Position numbers and translations under genes: made by a program. The notes beneath the pieces are model-generated. The model did no database searches. It saw only the letters and a list, made by a program, of their open reading frames with translations, and was not told the origin of the DNA. From Nitrospirales bacterium (GTDB lineage: Bacteria > Nitrospirota > Nitrospiria > Nitrospirales > UBA8639), in contig BQIW01000012.1 of assembly GCA_021604105.1 (NCBI GenBank), positions 1 to 64,000 on the forward strand: 64,000 nt of DNA, written 5' to 3'. This document shows positions 26,570-37,502 of the stretch, one piece after another. The stretch's first letter is position 1, and each line of letters opens with the position of its first letter.

Positions 26570-27823
26570 ATGGCTCCGATCCGTCCTTCGACAATAGAAG
26601 ACCTCAAGCATATGGTGCGGGAGCGGACCCGTGAAGTGCAGATTCTTCACCGAATCAGCGAATCCATTAGTAGTACCTTGGAGCTGGAAACGGTGTTAAA
26701 GCAGATCGTGGAAGTGGTTGTGGAAGTGACGAAGGGGGATGCCTGTCTGTTGTATTTGATCTCTGAAACAACAGACGAGCTTATTTTGCGCGCATCGAAA
26801 AATCCTCACCCTCGTCTCATCGGGAGGATATCGATAGGTTTGGGAGAAGGAATTACCGGATGGGTGGCACGAGAAAAAATTCCTGTGGTGATTCCTCGCA
26901 ATGCAAGTGATGACGCCAGATTTAAGTTTTTTCATCGTTTGCCAGAAGATCGCTATCAGGCGTTTGTATCAGTTCCCATTACGAGTAAGGGGAAAATGGT
27001 CGGTGTCATCAATGTTCAGCATAAGCGGTCAAAGCGGTATGCTGAAGAAACGCTTGCGCTCTTGCTGACCATTGCCAATCAAGTCGGCGCGGCCATTGAC
27101 AATGCCAGATTGTATGATGATATGCGGCAAAAAGCGCGGCGACTTGAAACCCTTTCTCAAGTATCGGAAACAGTGGCCTCCAATCGACTGATAGAGGATG
27201 TGCTGCAATTGATTGTCACCATGACGGCTCAGCTGATGAATTCAAAAATTTGCTCGATCATGCTCGTCGACCAGGCTTCTGGGGAACTTCGTATTGCAGC
27301 CACTCAAAGCCTGAGTGAGGCGTACCGTCGGAAGCCACCGTTGAAGGTTGGGCAGAGCATGAGCGGCCGCGCGGTGCAGGATCAACATCCGGTGTATGTC
27401 CAGGATGTGAAGGCAGAAGATGGGTATTTTTATCGGGATTTGGCAAAGCAGGAAGGGTTGCATTCTTTATTATCCATTCCCATGCTCATGAAAGAAAATC
27501 CGATTGGGGTGATTAATGTCTACACTTCCAGTTATCATGCGTTTTCAGATGAAGAGATTACCACACTTCAAGCCATTGCGAATCAATCCGCCGTCGCCAT
27601 TGAGCACACTCGGCTTATGGAAAAATCGTTTGAAATGCAAGAGGCTCTGGAAGTGCGAAAATTGGTAGAGCGTGCTAAAGGGTTTTTAATGTCGTCTAGG
27701 GGATTGTCAGAGCCTGAAGCATTTCGCCTTATGCAGCGTCAAAGCATGAATCTTCGAAAATCCATGAGAGAAATTGCCGATGCGATTATTCTCGCGGAGG
27801 AACTACAACGGGCGACTCAATAA
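26570..27823 (+). CDS. GAF-GAF-ANTAR RNA-binding antiterminator
   Basis: The 417-residue protein has a short N-terminal coiled coil, two GAF sensor domains (about residues 35-180 and 200-345) and a C-terminal ANTAR domain (about 355-410). The ANTAR core is LVERAKGFLMSSRGLSEPEA followed by FRLMQRQSMNLRKSMREIA. ANTAR proteins bind dual-hexaloop RNAs and stop terminator formation. Here no receiver domain is present, so the signal is presumably a ligand of the GAF domains. The start is ATG 26570, right after aroB, and an upstream in-frame codon inside aroB is unlikely. The next sequence downstream is the leader at 27909-27994, which has exactly the expected target shape. Confidence 0.93.
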   Translation: MAPIRPSTIEDLKHMVRERTREVQILHRISESISSTLELETVLKQIVEVVVEVTKGDACLLYLISETTDELILRASKNPHPRLIGRISIGLGEGITGWVAREKIPVVIPRNASDDARFKFFHRLPEDRYQAFVSVPITSKGKMVGVINVQHKRSKRYAEETLALLLTIANQVGAAIDNARLYDDMRQKARRLETLSQVSETVASNRLIEDVLQLIVTMTAQLMNSKICSIMLVDQASGELRIAATQSLSEAYRRKPPLKVGQSMSGRAVQDQHPVYVQDVKAEDGYFYRDLAKQEGLHSLLSIPMLMKENPIGVINVYTSSYHAFSDEEITTLQAIANQSAVAIEHTRLMEKSFEMQEALEVRKLVERAKGFLMSSRGLSEPEAFRLMQRQSMNLRKSMREIADAIILAEELQRATQ

Positions 27824-27873: not shown

Positions 27874-27902
27874 TTGAACGGATTCTCCAATGCTTGTATA
27901 AT
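27874..27902 (+). promoter_or_regulatory. Promoter of nadE-glnD
   Basis: The -35 TTGAAC (27874-27879) and a perfect -10 TATAAT (27897-27902) are 17 bases apart. Transcription would start near 27909, directly before the first hairpin of the ANTAR leader. Confidence 0.75.
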
Positions 27903-27908
27903 ACCGTG

Positions 27909-27994
27909 AAGGGCGACAACGACGTCTTCCCGTATATGTTTGTTCAAAGGACAATGGCGTCCTCGGTTCCGGTGGGACAGAGGACGTTTTTTTT
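27909..27994 (+). promoter_or_regulatory. ANTAR dual-hexaloop leader with overlapping terminator
   Basis: Hairpin P1 has arms 27911-27917 and 27924-27931 (GGG-C-GAC / GTC-TT-CCC) and the hexaloop AACGAC (27918-27923). Hairpin P2 has stem AGGAC/GTCCT (27948-27952 / 27959-27963) and hexaloop AATGGC (27953-27958). Both loops have A at position 1 and G at position 4, the ANTAR recognition rule. The terminator stem CGTCCTC (27958-27964) / GAGGACG (27980-27986) is followed by eight T (27987-27994) and shares its 5' arm with P2, so P2 and terminator exclude each other. The 3' arm also contains GAGGA, the likely ribosome binding site of nadE. The ANTAR gene lies immediately upstream. Confidence 0.85.
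27980..27994 (+). terminator. Leader attenuator terminator (3' arm and T-tract)
   Basis: GAGGACG pairs with CGTCCTC at 27958-27964 around a 15-base loop, and a run of eight T follows up to the nadE ATG. It is a textbook intrinsic terminator placed before, not after, a gene, which indicates attenuation. Confidence 0.85.
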
Positions 27995-29788
27995 ATGATG
28001 ATGCTTCGATTAGCGATGGTGCAGATGAATGCGGTGGTTGGGGATCTAGAGGGGAATACCCGCACCATTTGCGGATGGATTCGAGAGGCGAGGAAAGCCA
28101 AAGCCGATGTGGTTGTCTTTCCGGAGTTGGCCGTGTGTGGATATCCTCCGGAAGATCTGCTCCTCATGCCGAAGTTTCTTTTCGATATTAGTCGGATGCG
28201 GGATCGAATAACCAAAGTCACGACGGGGATTATGGCCGTAGTGGGAAGCGTGATTGAATCTGATCATGCTTCCCAAGATCTCCCCTGGAATCGCAGGCAG
28301 GATCGAAGGAAGCCGTTGAATGCGGCGTGGGTCCTGGTCAATGGTCAGGTAAAAAGATCATATGCCAAATGCAAGCTCCCCAACTATGGGGTGTTTGATG
28401 AAGAACGGTATTTTCAACCGGGACGAACCAGTCCGGTCTACTGCCTAGGCCCGTTACGAATCGGAATCAATATTTGTGAAGACATATGGTTTGCTGATGG
28501 TCCGGCCAGCCGGCAAGCCGTATATGGGGGTGCTCAACTGGTTCTCAACATGAATGCCTCCCCTTATCACGTCGGGAAAACTCACAATCGTGAACACATG
28601 TTAGCCCTTCGGGCAAAGGCTAACAATGTCATAGTCAGTTATACCAACATGGTCGGAGGGCAGGATGAATTGGTCTTTGATGGGAATAGTCTCGTCATGG
28701 ATTCCACGGGTGTGGTTCTTGCGCGAGCAAAAGCCTTTGAGGAAGATCTCTTGCTGACCGATCTTCAGATTCCTTCAACACAAAATGGTAAATCGAAGAG
28801 GCCGGGAAACGCATCTGAAGTTGATGGTGATCATGTTCGGATTCCGATGATCCGCATGGGGTGGACACCGAGGTGGCCGAAGTCTGGAGCTCCAGGTATC
28901 AGAAGAGTCACACCGGGCATAGGTGAGTTAGAGGAGATATACCGGGCACTTGTGCTAGGCGTGAAAGATTATGTGAGGAAGAATGCCTTCTCAAGGGTTC
29001 TTGTCGGTATCAGCGGAGGGATCGATTCGGCTTTGACTGCCGTGATTGCCCGAGATGCCTTAAGCGGGTCCAATGTGATGGGTGTAATGATGCCATCTCC
29101 CTATACCTCTAGGGAAAGTCGTGAGGATGCTCGTCAACTAGGGAGAAAATTAGGAATCGAGATGCGGCATCTTTCAATAACGAGGGTGTTTAAAGCTTTG
29201 CTTCAGGTGTTAGGCAAGTCATTTCAGGGTTGTCAGCCTGATACGACCGAGGAAAATCTGCAAGCTCGCATCCGGGGGACACTGCTGATGGCTCTTTCCA
29301 ATAAGTTCGGGTATTTAGTCCTGACTACGGGAAACAAAAGCGAAATGAGTGTGGGCTATGCCACCCTTTACGGGGATATGGCTGGTGGGTTTGCCGTTAT
29401 CAAAGACATTCCCAAAACAAAGGTGTATCAGCTTTCTCGATGGCGAAGTGATTATAGAGGCCCTGATTTCGATCGAGTGATTATTCCTGAAAGAATTCAG
29501 ATGCGTGCTCCTTCCGCTGAGTTGAGGCCCGATCAGATGGATCAGGATACTCTCCCTCCCTATTCGGTATTAGATGCCATTCTAGAAGCTTATGTTGAGG
29601 ACAATGAGTCAATGGGCAGTATTGTGAAAATGGGCTATGATTCTCATGTTGTTCGAACGGTTTTGGGAATGGTGGATCGGAGCGAATACAAGCGTCGGCA
29701 AGCGCCGGTAGGTATTAAAATTACCCCGAGAGCGTTAGGAAAAGATCGGCGCATGCCTATTACGAACCGATATTTTTCGGGAGCGTAA
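27995..29788 (+). CDS. nadE: Glutamine-dependent NAD+ synthetase
   Basis: This enzyme amidates deamido-NAD to NAD using ammonia from glutamine. The N-terminal nitrilase-type glutaminase domain (about residues 1-260) shows catalytic Glu in VVFPELAVCGYPPEDLL, Lys in YAKCKLPNYGVFDE and Cys in GINICEDIWF. The C-terminal synthetase domain has the PP-loop LVGISGGIDSALTAVI and TTGNKSEMSVGYATLYGD. The 597 residues are normal for the fused form. Three consecutive ATG codons start the frame, with the ribosome site inside the leader hairpin. glnD follows after 8 bases. Nitrogen status could therefore be read through glutamine at both genes. Confidence 0.97.
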   Translation: MMMLRLAMVQMNAVVGDLEGNTRTICGWIREARKAKADVVVFPELAVCGYPPEDLLLMPKFLFDISRMRDRITKVTTGIMAVVGSVIESDHASQDLPWNRRQDRRKPLNAAWVLVNGQVKRSYAKCKLPNYGVFDEERYFQPGRTSPVYCLGPLRIGINICEDIWFADGPASRQAVYGGAQLVLNMNASPYHVGKTHNREHMLALRAKANNVIVSYTNMVGGQDELVFDGNSLVMDSTGVVLARAKAFEEDLLLTDLQIPSTQNGKSKRPGNASEVDGDHVRIPMIRMGWTPRWPKSGAPGIRRVTPGIGELEEIYRALVLGVKDYVRKNAFSRVLVGISGGIDSALTAVIARDALSGSNVMGVMMPSPYTSRESREDARQLGRKLGIEMRHLSITRVFKALLQVLGKSFQGCQPDTTEENLQARIRGTLLMALSNKFGYLVLTTGNKSEMSVGYATLYGDMAGGFAVIKDIPKTKVYQLSRWRSDYRGPDFDRVIIPERIQMRAPSAELRPDQMDQDTLPPYSVLDAILEAYVEDNESMGSIVKMGYDSHVVRTVLGMVDRSEYKRRQAPVGIKITPRALGKDRRMPITNRYFSGA

Positions 29789-29795
29789 CCTGAAT

Positions 29796-32537
29796 GTGCA
29801 ATATGGTCAGGATTGGCGGGAGTCGTCCTCGATGAGTGAAGGCGTTTCATTGCCCCCTACCGGTTTGACGGAACAGAAGGACTCCTCTCTGGGCCTTCAT
29901 ATTCTCCAGTCCCAGCGTGAGGTTCTTCGACAACGCTTATTTGAAGGGGCGACCGGCAGTGAGATCACCCAGGCTTTTTCGGATTTTATGGATGCTTTAC
30001 TGATCGCGCGGTTTCGGGAGGTCATTCAGCAAGGCAATGCAGGTGTGCGAGCTGGATGGCCGCAGTGTTGCTTGGTAGCCATGGGAGGGTATGGGCGGCG
30101 GGAGTTAGCTCCATATTCCGACATCGATGTGATGATTCTCACTCAGGGCAATCAAAGAGAGGCCGCTGAGGCACTTTCTACCGGAGTCTTTCACCGGCTT
30201 TGGGATCTTGGGTTTCAAGTTGGGCATAGTGTGCGGACCCTCACAGAATGTCTGACGATTGCAGAGGCCGATCTGGCTGCCTGTACCTCACTGATGGAAT
30301 CACGATTTCTCATTGGCAGTGCTCCAGTGTTTCAGGAATTTCACCGAAAATTCGAACGGCGGATTATCAAAAAACGGGCGCAACGGTTTGTCCTGGATAA
30401 AATTCAAGAGCGCGAGAGAGAGTATGCCAAATTTGGTGAGACGGTCTTTATGCTGGAACCGAATATTAAAAAAAGTAAAGGTGGGCTCCGGGATTTGCAT
30501 TTGCTGCAATGGGTTGGCCAGGCTCGATATGGAGTAGGGACGATTCAAGAACTCTCGAATCGGGGAATAATAGCTATTCAGGATTATCAGGTTCTGCAAG
30601 AAGCGCAGGAATTTCTTTGGCGAGTTCGGTGTTTTTTACATTTTGAAGCGGGGCGGGCTCAAGATATCCTCACATTCGACGATCAGGTTCGGCTCTCTGC
30701 ACTTTGGGGATTTGTGGATCACTCTCATTTGTTGGCTGTTGAGCAATTTATGCAGGTGTATTTCCGTCATACGACGGGGTTGTTTGACCGCGGGCGGCGA
30801 TTCCTTGATCAAGCCAGAAAGGAATCCTGGTTGGATCGGATCCGCCAATGGTGGCCTCCTCCGTTAATCGAGGGACACTTCCGAATTCTGGAAAACCGAC
30901 TGACAATTCAGACGGATAAGCTGCTTGAGGTAATGGAAAGCCCCATGTTGCTCCTGAGGTTATTTGTGATTTCTCATCGTCAAGCCGTCCCTATCGATTC
31001 ACGTATTCTCGATGAATTGTCTCAGCACATGAGAACCTTACCCAATGAGGAGTTTCATACTAAGCCGGTGAGTGGACTTTTTCGATACATTCTGTCAAGC
31101 CCCGGTCGAATAGCTCAAAATCTTGAGGCCATGCATCAGGCCGGTCTTCTGGAAAAACTTGTGCCGGCTTTCTCTCGGGTACGTGGCCTCATGCAGTTCA
31201 ATCAATATCATAAATACACCGTCGATGAGCATAGTCTGCTCGCAGTGAGGGAAGCCGAACGGCTTCAAACTCATCAAGGGATCATAGGGGATGTCTACCG
31301 AAACATCCCTGATAAAGACATTTTGCATTTGGCGTTGTTGCTGCACGATTTAGGCAAAGGGCGTCCTGGAGATCATAGTGAAGTGGGTCAGGAGATTGCT
31401 CACTTAACGGCCGATCGGTTGGGTTTAGCTGAGAAGGAACGGCAGACTCTCGCTTTCCTGGTTCGCCATCATTTAAAGATGTCTCATACGGCTTTTCGTC
31501 GAGATCTCAACGATCCCAAAACAATTGTCACGTTTGCCCGGTTGGTGAAAACGGTCGGGATGCTTCAAAAGCTGTTTATCCTGACTATTGCAGATATATC
31601 AGCGGTGGGACCTGAGGTGATGACGAAATGGAAAGGGTCCTTATTAGGCGAGCTGTATTCCCTGACCTACGCAGAGCTCGCCGGGGATGAAGGTCCATCG
31701 TATTCCGGTGATGGGAGTCAGAATGTTTCGACCGAAGCGCGAGACAGCCTTATCAAGATTTTAAGGTCCTATCGAAGCGAGGAAAATTCTCCTGAACCCG
31801 ACTGGGCGGAATGGGTGAATGCCAATCTTCAACAACTTCCCAGCCGGTACGTTCAGTCGACACCGGTAGATCAAATGGCGGCGTATCTCTTAGCCATTCG
31901 CTCTCTCCCTGTAAAGCCGACTCATGTGGAGGCCAGATTTAATCAGGCAGCAGGTGTTTCGGAGTATGTCCTGATCACCCGTGAACAGACCAAACCGGGT
32001 GTTTTTATGCAAATGGCCGGTGTGTTAGCCGCCATGGGTTTGCAGGTATTGGAAGCACAAATTATGACACTGAAGGATGGCACGGTGTGGGATGTGTTTT
32101 CGGTTCATGATTCAGATTTTGAGGGACCGCCATCTGCCGTGCGCCTAGAGGAGGTGGCAAAGGAAATTCATGAGGTCGTGGAGGGAAGACAATCAGTTCA
32201 CCAATTGGTCAAGCGACGACGGCGCATGGCCTTTGGTCGTCCCTTTCCTACAGGCCGGCATCCCACCGAAGTCCATATTGATCATGGGGTCTCGGATTCC
32301 TTTACAGTGATTGACGTGTTTGCCGATGACAAGCAAGGGTTGCTCTTTGTGATCGCGAAAACGCTGGTGCAATTGAATCTCTCAATTCATATGGCAAGAA
32401 TCGGGACCAGGTTAGATCAGGTGGCCGATGTCTTTTATGTGAGCAATTCTGAGGGAGAAAAAATTCTTTCCGGTGAAGACTGTGAGCAAATTCAACAGAC
32501 TCTTCACGCCGCTGTTGATCAATTTCTGGATGAATAA
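29796..32537 (+). CDS. glnD: [Protein-PII] uridylyltransferase / uridylyl-removing enzyme
   Basis: GlnD senses glutamine and uridylylates or de-uridylylates PII proteins, the top of the nitrogen-control cascade. The 913-residue product has the nucleotidyltransferase motif GGYGRRELAPYSDIDVMIL (about residues 100-118), the conserved KSKGGLRDLHLLQW, the HD hydrolase motif ALLLHDLGKGRPGDHSE (about 510), and two C-terminal ACT domains (about 730 to the end). GTG 29796 is the longest start. ATG 29832, with GGGAG nine bases upstream, is a strong alternative. It shares the ANTAR-controlled transcript with nadE. No glnB or amtB is in the window. Confidence 0.97.
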   Translation: MQYGQDWRESSSMSEGVSLPPTGLTEQKDSSLGLHILQSQREVLRQRLFEGATGSEITQAFSDFMDALLIARFREVIQQGNAGVRAGWPQCCLVAMGGYGRRELAPYSDIDVMILTQGNQREAAEALSTGVFHRLWDLGFQVGHSVRTLTECLTIAEADLAACTSLMESRFLIGSAPVFQEFHRKFERRIIKKRAQRFVLDKIQEREREYAKFGETVFMLEPNIKKSKGGLRDLHLLQWVGQARYGVGTIQELSNRGIIAIQDYQVLQEAQEFLWRVRCFLHFEAGRAQDILTFDDQVRLSALWGFVDHSHLLAVEQFMQVYFRHTTGLFDRGRRFLDQARKESWLDRIRQWWPPPLIEGHFRILENRLTIQTDKLLEVMESPMLLLRLFVISHRQAVPIDSRILDELSQHMRTLPNEEFHTKPVSGLFRYILSSPGRIAQNLEAMHQAGLLEKLVPAFSRVRGLMQFNQYHKYTVDEHSLLAVREAERLQTHQGIIGDVYRNIPDKDILHLALLLHDLGKGRPGDHSEVGQEIAHLTADRLGLAEKERQTLAFLVRHHLKMSHTAFRRDLNDPKTIVTFARLVKTVGMLQKLFILTIADISAVGPEVMTKWKGSLLGELYSLTYAELAGDEGPSYSGDGSQNVSTEARDSLIKILRSYRSEENSPEPDWAEWVNANLQQLPSRYVQSTPVDQMAAYLLAIRSLPVKPTHVEARFNQAAGVSEYVLITREQTKPGVFMQMAGVLAAMGLQVLEAQIMTLKDGTVWDVFSVHDSDFEGPPSAVRLEEVAKEIHEVVEGRQSVHQLVKRRRRMAFGRPFPTGRHPTEVHIDHGVSDSFTVIDVFADDKQGLLFVIAKTLVQLNLSIHMARIGTRLDQVADVFYVSNSEGEKILSGEDCEQIQQTLHAAVDQFLDE

Positions 32538-36464: not shown

Positions 36465-36941
36465 ATGAAAGCAAAAAAGGGGGTTGTGGATTTTCTGAAT
36501 CAAATTTTAACGGAGGAACTGACGGTTATTAACCAATATTTCCTCCATGCTAAAATGTGTGCCAATTGGGGGTATGAACGGTTGGAGAAAAAAATACGGG
36601 AACGAAGTTTTAGTGAGATGAAAGATGCCGACAAAATCATTGAACATATTCTGTATCTTGAAGGCGTGCCCAACGTTCAGCGTCTGGGGACGGTGAAAAT
36701 CGGCGAGACCGTTCCCGAGCAGTTGAAGTTGGATTTAAAGAAAGAACAAGAGATGGTCACCCTCCTGACTGAGGCCATCCAACATTGTTCAAAGGTTGGA
36801 GACTTCACGACGCGGCATCTGTTCGAAGATATGGTGGCAGATGAAGACGAACATATTGACTGGATTGAAACTCAGCAGGAAACAATTAAGCAGGTTGGCC
36901 TCGAGAATTATTTGAGCGAACAAATCAAGAATGAGTCGTAA
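36465..36941 (+). CDS. bfr: Bacterioferritin, haem-ligand subunit
   Basis: Bacterioferritin stores iron as a 24-mer with a di-iron ferroxidase centre and haem between subunits. The 158-residue protein aligns along its whole length with Escherichia coli Bfr. It has Glu18 in LTEELTVINQYF, Glu51 and the haem ligand Met52 in SEMKDADKIIEHIL, Glu94, and Glu127/His130 in DEDEHIDW. The ferroxidase ligand His54 is replaced by Asp. The start is ATG 36465 after AAAGGGAGGTGAGCG, a very strong site. The next gene is a diverged paralogue 84 bases downstream. Confidence 0.95.
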   Translation: MKAKKGVVDFLNQILTEELTVINQYFLHAKMCANWGYERLEKKIRERSFSEMKDADKIIEHILYLEGVPNVQRLGTVKIGETVPEQLKLDLKKEQEMVTLLTEAIQHCSKVGDFTTRHLFEDMVADEDEHIDWIETQQETIKQVGLENYLSEQIKNES

Positions 36942-37025
36942 GATGCCAATCATGAGATGTCGGGCGAACAAGTGGGGAATGTTCCCATTTGTCCACGGCC
37001 CTTTCTCATCAATAAGGAGAGGATC

Positions 37026-37502
37026 ATGAAGGCCAAAGAGGGAGTTCTGGAATTTCTCAATAACATTCTAACGGCCGAGTTGACCGCTGCACATCAATAT
37101 ATTGCGAATGCGGCCATGTGCGGCAATTGGGGATATGATCGGTTGCACCATACGATCCAGGAGCGTGCGTTAGAGGAAGTGACTCATGCGGGAGGCATTG
37201 TTGAGCATATCCTCTACTTAGAAGGAAAGCCGGACATGCAGCGGTTAGGAACGGTCAATGTTGGCCAAACGGTTTTGGATCAGTTTAAGAGTGATTTGAA
37301 ACTTGAAATGGCTGATTTGCAACTTCTGCGCGAGGCCATTGGTCATTGCGATAAGGTTGGAGATTATACGACCCGGCACAAGCTGGAAGAGATGAGTGTG
37401 GATACCGATGAACACATTGACTGGCTGGAAACTCAAATGGAAACAATCAGGCAAGTTGGTCTCGAAAATTACCTAAGCGAGCAGATTAAAAAAGACGGCT
37501 GA
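37026..37502 (+). CDS. bfr: Bacterioferritin paralogue lacking the haem Met and one ferroxidase Glu
   Basis: This 158-residue paralogue of the upstream gene keeps Glu18 (LTAELTAAHQY), Glu51 and His54 (EEVTHAGGIVEHIL), Glu94 and His130. It has Val at haem position Met52 and Thr at Glu127 (VDTDEHIDW). It starts at ATG 37026 after AATAAGGAGAGGATC. The two proteins lose different ligands, as in hetero-oligomeric bacterioferritins of some proteobacteria, so mixed 24-mers are likely. ATG 36957 opens a longer frame but without conserved sequence. Confidence 0.93.
   Translation: MKAKEGVLEFLNNILTAELTAAHQYIANAAMCGNWGYDRLHHTIQERALEEVTHAGGIVEHILYLEGKPDMQRLGTVNVGQTVLDQFKSDLKLEMADLQLLREAIGHCDKVGDYTTRHKLEEMSVDTDEHIDWLETQMETIRQVGLENYLSEQIKKDG

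Follow-up and report, generated by a model that had tools for sequence, protein, structure and literature searches.

A dual-hexaloop leader before nadE-glnD in Nitrospirales, a probable ANTAR antitermination RNA of a nitrogen-assimilation regulon

In the EutV/eutP system of Enterococcus faecalis, the leader RNA carries two hexaloop hairpins that follow the A1/G4 rule, the second of which (P2) overlaps an intrinsic terminator, and EutV requires both hexaloops in vivo (PMC8934654). Antitermination of a nitrogen-related operon by a sensor-ANTAR protein is also described for NasR at nasF of Klebsiella and for AmiR at amiE of Pseudomonas. ANTAR regulons were predicted by Ramesh et al. 2012, whose main text describes genomes, e.g. 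that of Desulfotomaculum acetoxidans, with several such leaders each, placed ahead of genes for ammonium transporters, PII, nitrite and glutamate (PMC3369931).

In the window, meaning the whole stretch of 64,000 nucleotides analysed, a leader of this layout lies before nadE and glnD (Table 1). Judged from its sequence, it is very probably a dual-hexaloop ANTAR antitermination RNA of a nitrogen-assimilation regulon, with nadE-glnD, on the best reading, as the regulator-linked member. The promoter with 17-base spacing, the P1 loop AACGAC, the P2 loop AATGGC and the T8 terminator, which an earlier note on this DNA had described, were all found at the positions it gave. TTGAA(C/G)-17-TATAAT is present in most nadE leaders of the same genus.

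Table 1. Positions of leader elements and genes at the nadE-glnD locus of the window.
Feature	Positions	Strand	Evidence
GAF-GAF-ANTAR protein, presumed antiterminator	26570..27823	+	Pfam GAF_2 7.8e-44, PF03861 E 1.1e-20
ANTAR domain coding region	27635..27790	+	PF03861; EutV RNA-contact residues mostly kept
-35 TTGAAC	27874..27879	+	sequence
-10 TATAAT	27897..27902	+	sequence; 17 nt from -35
P1 hairpin	27911..27930	+	hexaloop AACGAC 27918-27923; covariation among relatives
P1-P2 linker, 17 nt	27931..27947	+	sequence
P2 antiterminator hairpin	27948..27963	+	hexaloop AATGGC 27953-27958; GGAC/GTCC stem nearly invariant
Intrinsic terminator	27958..27994	+	arms CGTCCTC 27958-27964 / GAGGACG 27980-27986, T8 27987-27994
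nadE, glutamine-dependent NAD synthetase, N-terminal CN_hydrolase	27995..29788	+	PF02540 5.1e-71, PF00795 2.8e-28
glnD, PII uridylyltransferase	29796..32537	+	TIGR01693 E 2.5e-213, above cut-off

P2 and the terminator are mutually exclusive: GTCCT is common to both stems, in line with the shared 5' arm that the earlier note had recognised, and T8 comes after the terminator stem. The terminator stem starts at the final P2 loop base and takes up the entire P2 3' arm; the folding energy of 27959-27994 is -16.5 kcal/mol, that of P2 by itself -6.3. Both loops, AACGAC in P1 and AATGGC in P2, have A1 and G4, as had been claimed. Hairpin P1 is present and covaries in relatives, but in the window it is weaker than the earlier note suggested: a C.U mismatch separates the three Watson-Crick pairs next to the loop from an outer part made of G.U and two G-C pairs. 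Taking at least three pairs as a stem, P1 has three contiguous pairs and three more past the mismatch, and P2 has five. The linker falls inside the range of 2-25 nt used for actinobacterial ANTAR RNAs (PMC8164766). The window was scanned on both strands for A1/G4 hexaloop hairpins with P2 overlapping a terminator and P1 upstream; the nadE leader was the single match, where 0.05 were expected per Markov-simulated window.

T8 abuts the first ATG of nadE (27995). In the closest relatives the conserved start is more often the second ATG, and by this comparison the conserved start in the window may be 27998. The nadE product scores above the cut-off of NF010588, and the gap between nadE and glnD is 7 nt. 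Further along the window, two adjacent similar genes (36465-36941 and 36957-37502) have, by eye, the look of bacterioferritin paralogues.

The gene directly upstream of the leader, correctly called GAF-GAF-ANTAR in the earlier note (GAF_2 and PF03861 matches), holds the sole ANTAR match found in the genome, which carries both protein and leader RNA. In an alignment with EutV (6wsh), for which the residues in contact with RNA were taken from PMC8934654, six of the ten contacts are identical (R142, K143, K149, E160, N173 and R175), two are conservatively replaced (K147 to R, Y164 to F) and two are changed (R168 to Q, R177 to S). Phe thus stands in place of the G4-stacking Tyr, and Rv1626 likewise has Phe. 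The first of the two GAF domains most resembles those of PtsP and NifA. Since GAF domains of PtsP/NifA-type proteins are reported to bind glutamine (PMC4848567) and 2-oxoglutarate (PMC8219145), it is reasonable to guess at a signal of nitrogen status, and the GAF domains here probably read nitrogen status as one of these two compounds.

A strict P2 plus terminator pattern was searched in 84,980 species genomes and matched 56 stretches, every one of which lies in a record with Nitrospira, Nitrospirales, Nitrospiria, Nitrospiraceae or Nitrospirota/Nitrospirae in its title; covariance-model matches outside the order were marginal. The window's genome has a second leader (C49:29326-29417, E 1.5e-5 with the covariance model), before genes for a BBP2 porin and the ammonium transporter AmtB. 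Its P1 (AACGAC) and P2 (AATGAA) obey A1/G4, and its terminator overlaps P2. Weaker model matches in this genome (E 0.3 and above) were set aside on reading, as the paired hexaloops were absent. Congeners have a third leader before a formate/nitrite-family (FNT) transporter and nirA; in the window's genome the contig ends inside or near the transporter gene upstream of nirA. Regulon operon genes lie downstream on the same strand in 32 of the 39 non-nadE leaders fetched, counting transport or assimilation genes, or the regulator or porin of those operons. The targets are porin-amtB, FNT-nirA, cyanase, an NMT1-family ABC transporter, a urea-type binding protein and a sigma-54 regulator, and some operons are preceded by two leaders in tandem. 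With leaders before ammonium, nitrite, cyanate and urea genes across the order, this looks like a nitrogen control system.

Several leader variants were seen. At least two ANTAR leaders stand close together, mostly in tandem, at L186, L187, L192, L193, L195, L198, L202 and L204. A seven-base P2 loop (AANGNNC) occurs in L166, L167, L168, L173, L175 and L178, which belong to nitrite-transporter, nirA or sigma-54 regulator operons. The leaders at L186, L190 and L193 precede a lipoprotein-like gene; the protein at L190 had no Pfam match.

From this arrangement we infer protein binding, termination, the direction of control and the signal as follows. Transcription would begin a few bases 5' of P1. 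In the default state the P2 3' arm would pair downstream to form the terminator, and the transcript would stop at the T run before nadE. The active GAF-GAF-ANTAR protein would be recruited by P1 and hold P2, blocking the terminator so that transcription runs on into nadE and glnD. This protein would also act on the leader before the porin-ammonium transporter operon of its own genome and, in relatives, the ANTAR protein would act on leaders of nitrite, cyanate and urea assimilation genes. A NadE search of the window's genome gave no second close match among the matches listed, and an essential role is expected for nadE. The terminator must therefore leak, or the ANTAR protein stay partly active; the switch should modulate nadE expression and not abolish it, and strict on/off control is implausible.

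The earlier note had linked an ANTAR protein to NAD synthesis. The nadE-glnD leader is conserved, but the link is not isolated, being one member of a nitrogen regulon. More broadly, one GAF-GAF-ANTAR protein may be the main regulator of nitrogen assimilation in Nitrospirales, an order of nitrite oxidisers and relatives. By antitermination it would control nadE-glnD as well as the operons for ammonium, nitrite, cyanate and urea, and would couple NAD synthesis to nitrogen status; we consider the case for this evenly balanced. Deliberate NAD-nitrogen coupling is a weaker claim than ANTAR control of the nadE-glnD operon, because glnD alone could explain the control. It is a serious though tentative alternative that the switch serves glnD and nitrogen control only, with nadE as a passenger and NAD supply not the regulated quantity: the remaining targets are nitrogen assimilation genes, and glnD modifies PII. 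Against this, nadE comes first in the operon, its leader is kept in distant families, and the enzyme itself uses glutamine. This alternative is compatible with ANTAR antitermination of the operon and competes with the NAD part alone.

In 118 sampled genomes of the order nadE was located, and for many of them the sequence before it was compared. Almost every sampled species of the genus and family has P2 and terminator ahead of nadE, as do species of other families; in family f3 the leader stands before many nadE genes. Loss of P2 or the terminator in relatives, which the earlier note had named as evidence against it, is rare in the window's family, where nearly every complete nadE examined is preceded by a P2 that has G4 and by a terminator overlapping it. 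The exceptions include L111 and L027, in whose nadE leaders no intact GGAC-N6-GTCC P2 was found. Among automatic calls, P2 position 4 is G in 79 of 79, and position 1 is A in 60 and G in 19. P1 is present in nadE leaders of the window's genus and several other genera. The P1 hexaloop is missing at nadE in the small-genome genus g2, in g3 and g4 and in some more, and these P1-less leaders, set against the need of EutV for both hexaloops, are a point against ANTAR antitermination at nadE, as is the weak P1 of the window's own leader. Leaders with P2 and terminator and without a P1 hexaloop were seen at L094, L100 and L110 (g2), L123, L124 and L101; some genomes with such a nadE leader retain P1 in their other leaders. 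In family f2, the nadE leaders L102, L104, L125 and L126, recognised by eye in four genomes, consist of three hexaloop hairpins and two successive terminators, and position 1 of their hexaloops is mostly G, not A.

The arrangement at the nadE start also raised the question of translation. An ANTAR RNA might act partly or mainly there, as the 3' arm of the terminator holds GAGG and formation of P2 would also free the ribosome site. GAGG, 11-14 nt 5' of the candidate ATGs, is the one sequence close ahead of nadE that resembles a Shine-Dalgarno site, T8 abuts the start codon, and translational ANTAR control has been proposed for actinobacteria (PMC8164766). The spacing from GAGG to ATG is long, though, the eight-T run indicates transcription termination, and in other families a long distance separates the terminator from the nadE start codon; we regard this explanation as unlikely.

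Covariation argued for the paired structure of P1. In 46 aligned leaders, 33 both-sided changes were counted, all in P1, versus 8.8 in shuffles. A second alignment of 83 leaders, fitted to the covariance model, had 162 both-sided changes versus 50.8 in shuffles and far lower values in slid controls, in pair counts that lean toward structure because of that fit; the 46-leader count is less circular. In the 83 leaders the P1 covariation score was 0.456, where shuffles gave 0.147, and all seven P1 pairs covaried. The GGAC/GTCC stem of P2 is almost invariant and is therefore silent on pairing.

A covariance model, the check proposed in the earlier note, recovered the second leader of the window's genome and matched in 80 of 92 genomes with ANTAR versus 1 of 26 without (Fisher p 1.6e-15, with shared ancestry ignored). 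Genus g12 has both kinds of genome, and the leader was found in 4/4 with ANTAR versus 1/22 without. ANTAR loss should be tolerated only together with leader loss, and the g12 genomes read agree with this. No leader of this kind was seen in the ANTAR-less genomes whose nadE upstream region was read. Eight of the 12 ANTAR-bearing genomes without a model match are from family f2, in which inspection by eye showed divergent leaders in four genomes. Genome G090, which lacks the ANTAR gene, has a leader (L184) that no nitrogen gene follows; this leader is probably a relic.

These data bear on two further explanations. A plain terminator of the aroB-ANTAR transcript next to a nadE promoter, with hexaloops by chance, would fit a strong terminator ~135 nt past the ANTAR gene stop, but is scarcely credible given that P1 covaries, that A1/G4 loops recur before unrelated operons, that leaders vanish with the ANTAR gene and that the promoter precedes the terminator, so that every nadE transcript from that promoter must cross it. 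A riboswitch that works without protein and senses NAD, glutamine or some other nitrogen metabolite would suit a leader before a biosynthetic and nitrogen-control operon, but is highly improbable, as Rfam scans gave no match at gathering thresholds for the leader and otherwise chance-level matches only, a pair of small hairpins whose A1/G4 loops are conserved agrees with an ANTAR RNA, and the distribution tracks the ANTAR gene.

Little is known of nitrogen-assimilation control in nitrite-oxidising and comammox Nitrospira, and a compact, conserved RNA switch with an identified protein is a direct, testable candidate for it. The natural leader variants (P1-less, seven-base P2 loop, tandem, and three hairpins with two terminators) are material on why ANTAR needs two hairpins. 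Searches of the open literature joining ANTAR with Nitrospira or nadE found nothing relevant, and within the papers covered the Nitrospirales ANTAR regulon and its NAD-synthetase target seem to be undescribed. The main text of Ramesh et al. does not mention Nitrospira or NAD synthetase, and neither cyanase nor a Nitrospirales GAF-GAF-ANTAR protein was found in its account (PMC3369931). The nitrogen theme is not new, because that work already showed it, PII genes included, and the antitermination mechanism is of a known kind (PMC3369931, PMC8934654). NasR and AmiR differ from the protein described here in their sensor domains and have one known locus each, versus several operons here. With EutV/eutP the window's system shares the A1/G4 dual hexaloop, the overlap of P2 with the terminator and an ANTAR domain with mostly conserved RNA contacts; it differs in having a GAF-GAF sensor where EutV has a REC domain, in its nadE-glnD target, in its phylum, and in the loss of P1 at nadE in some relatives.
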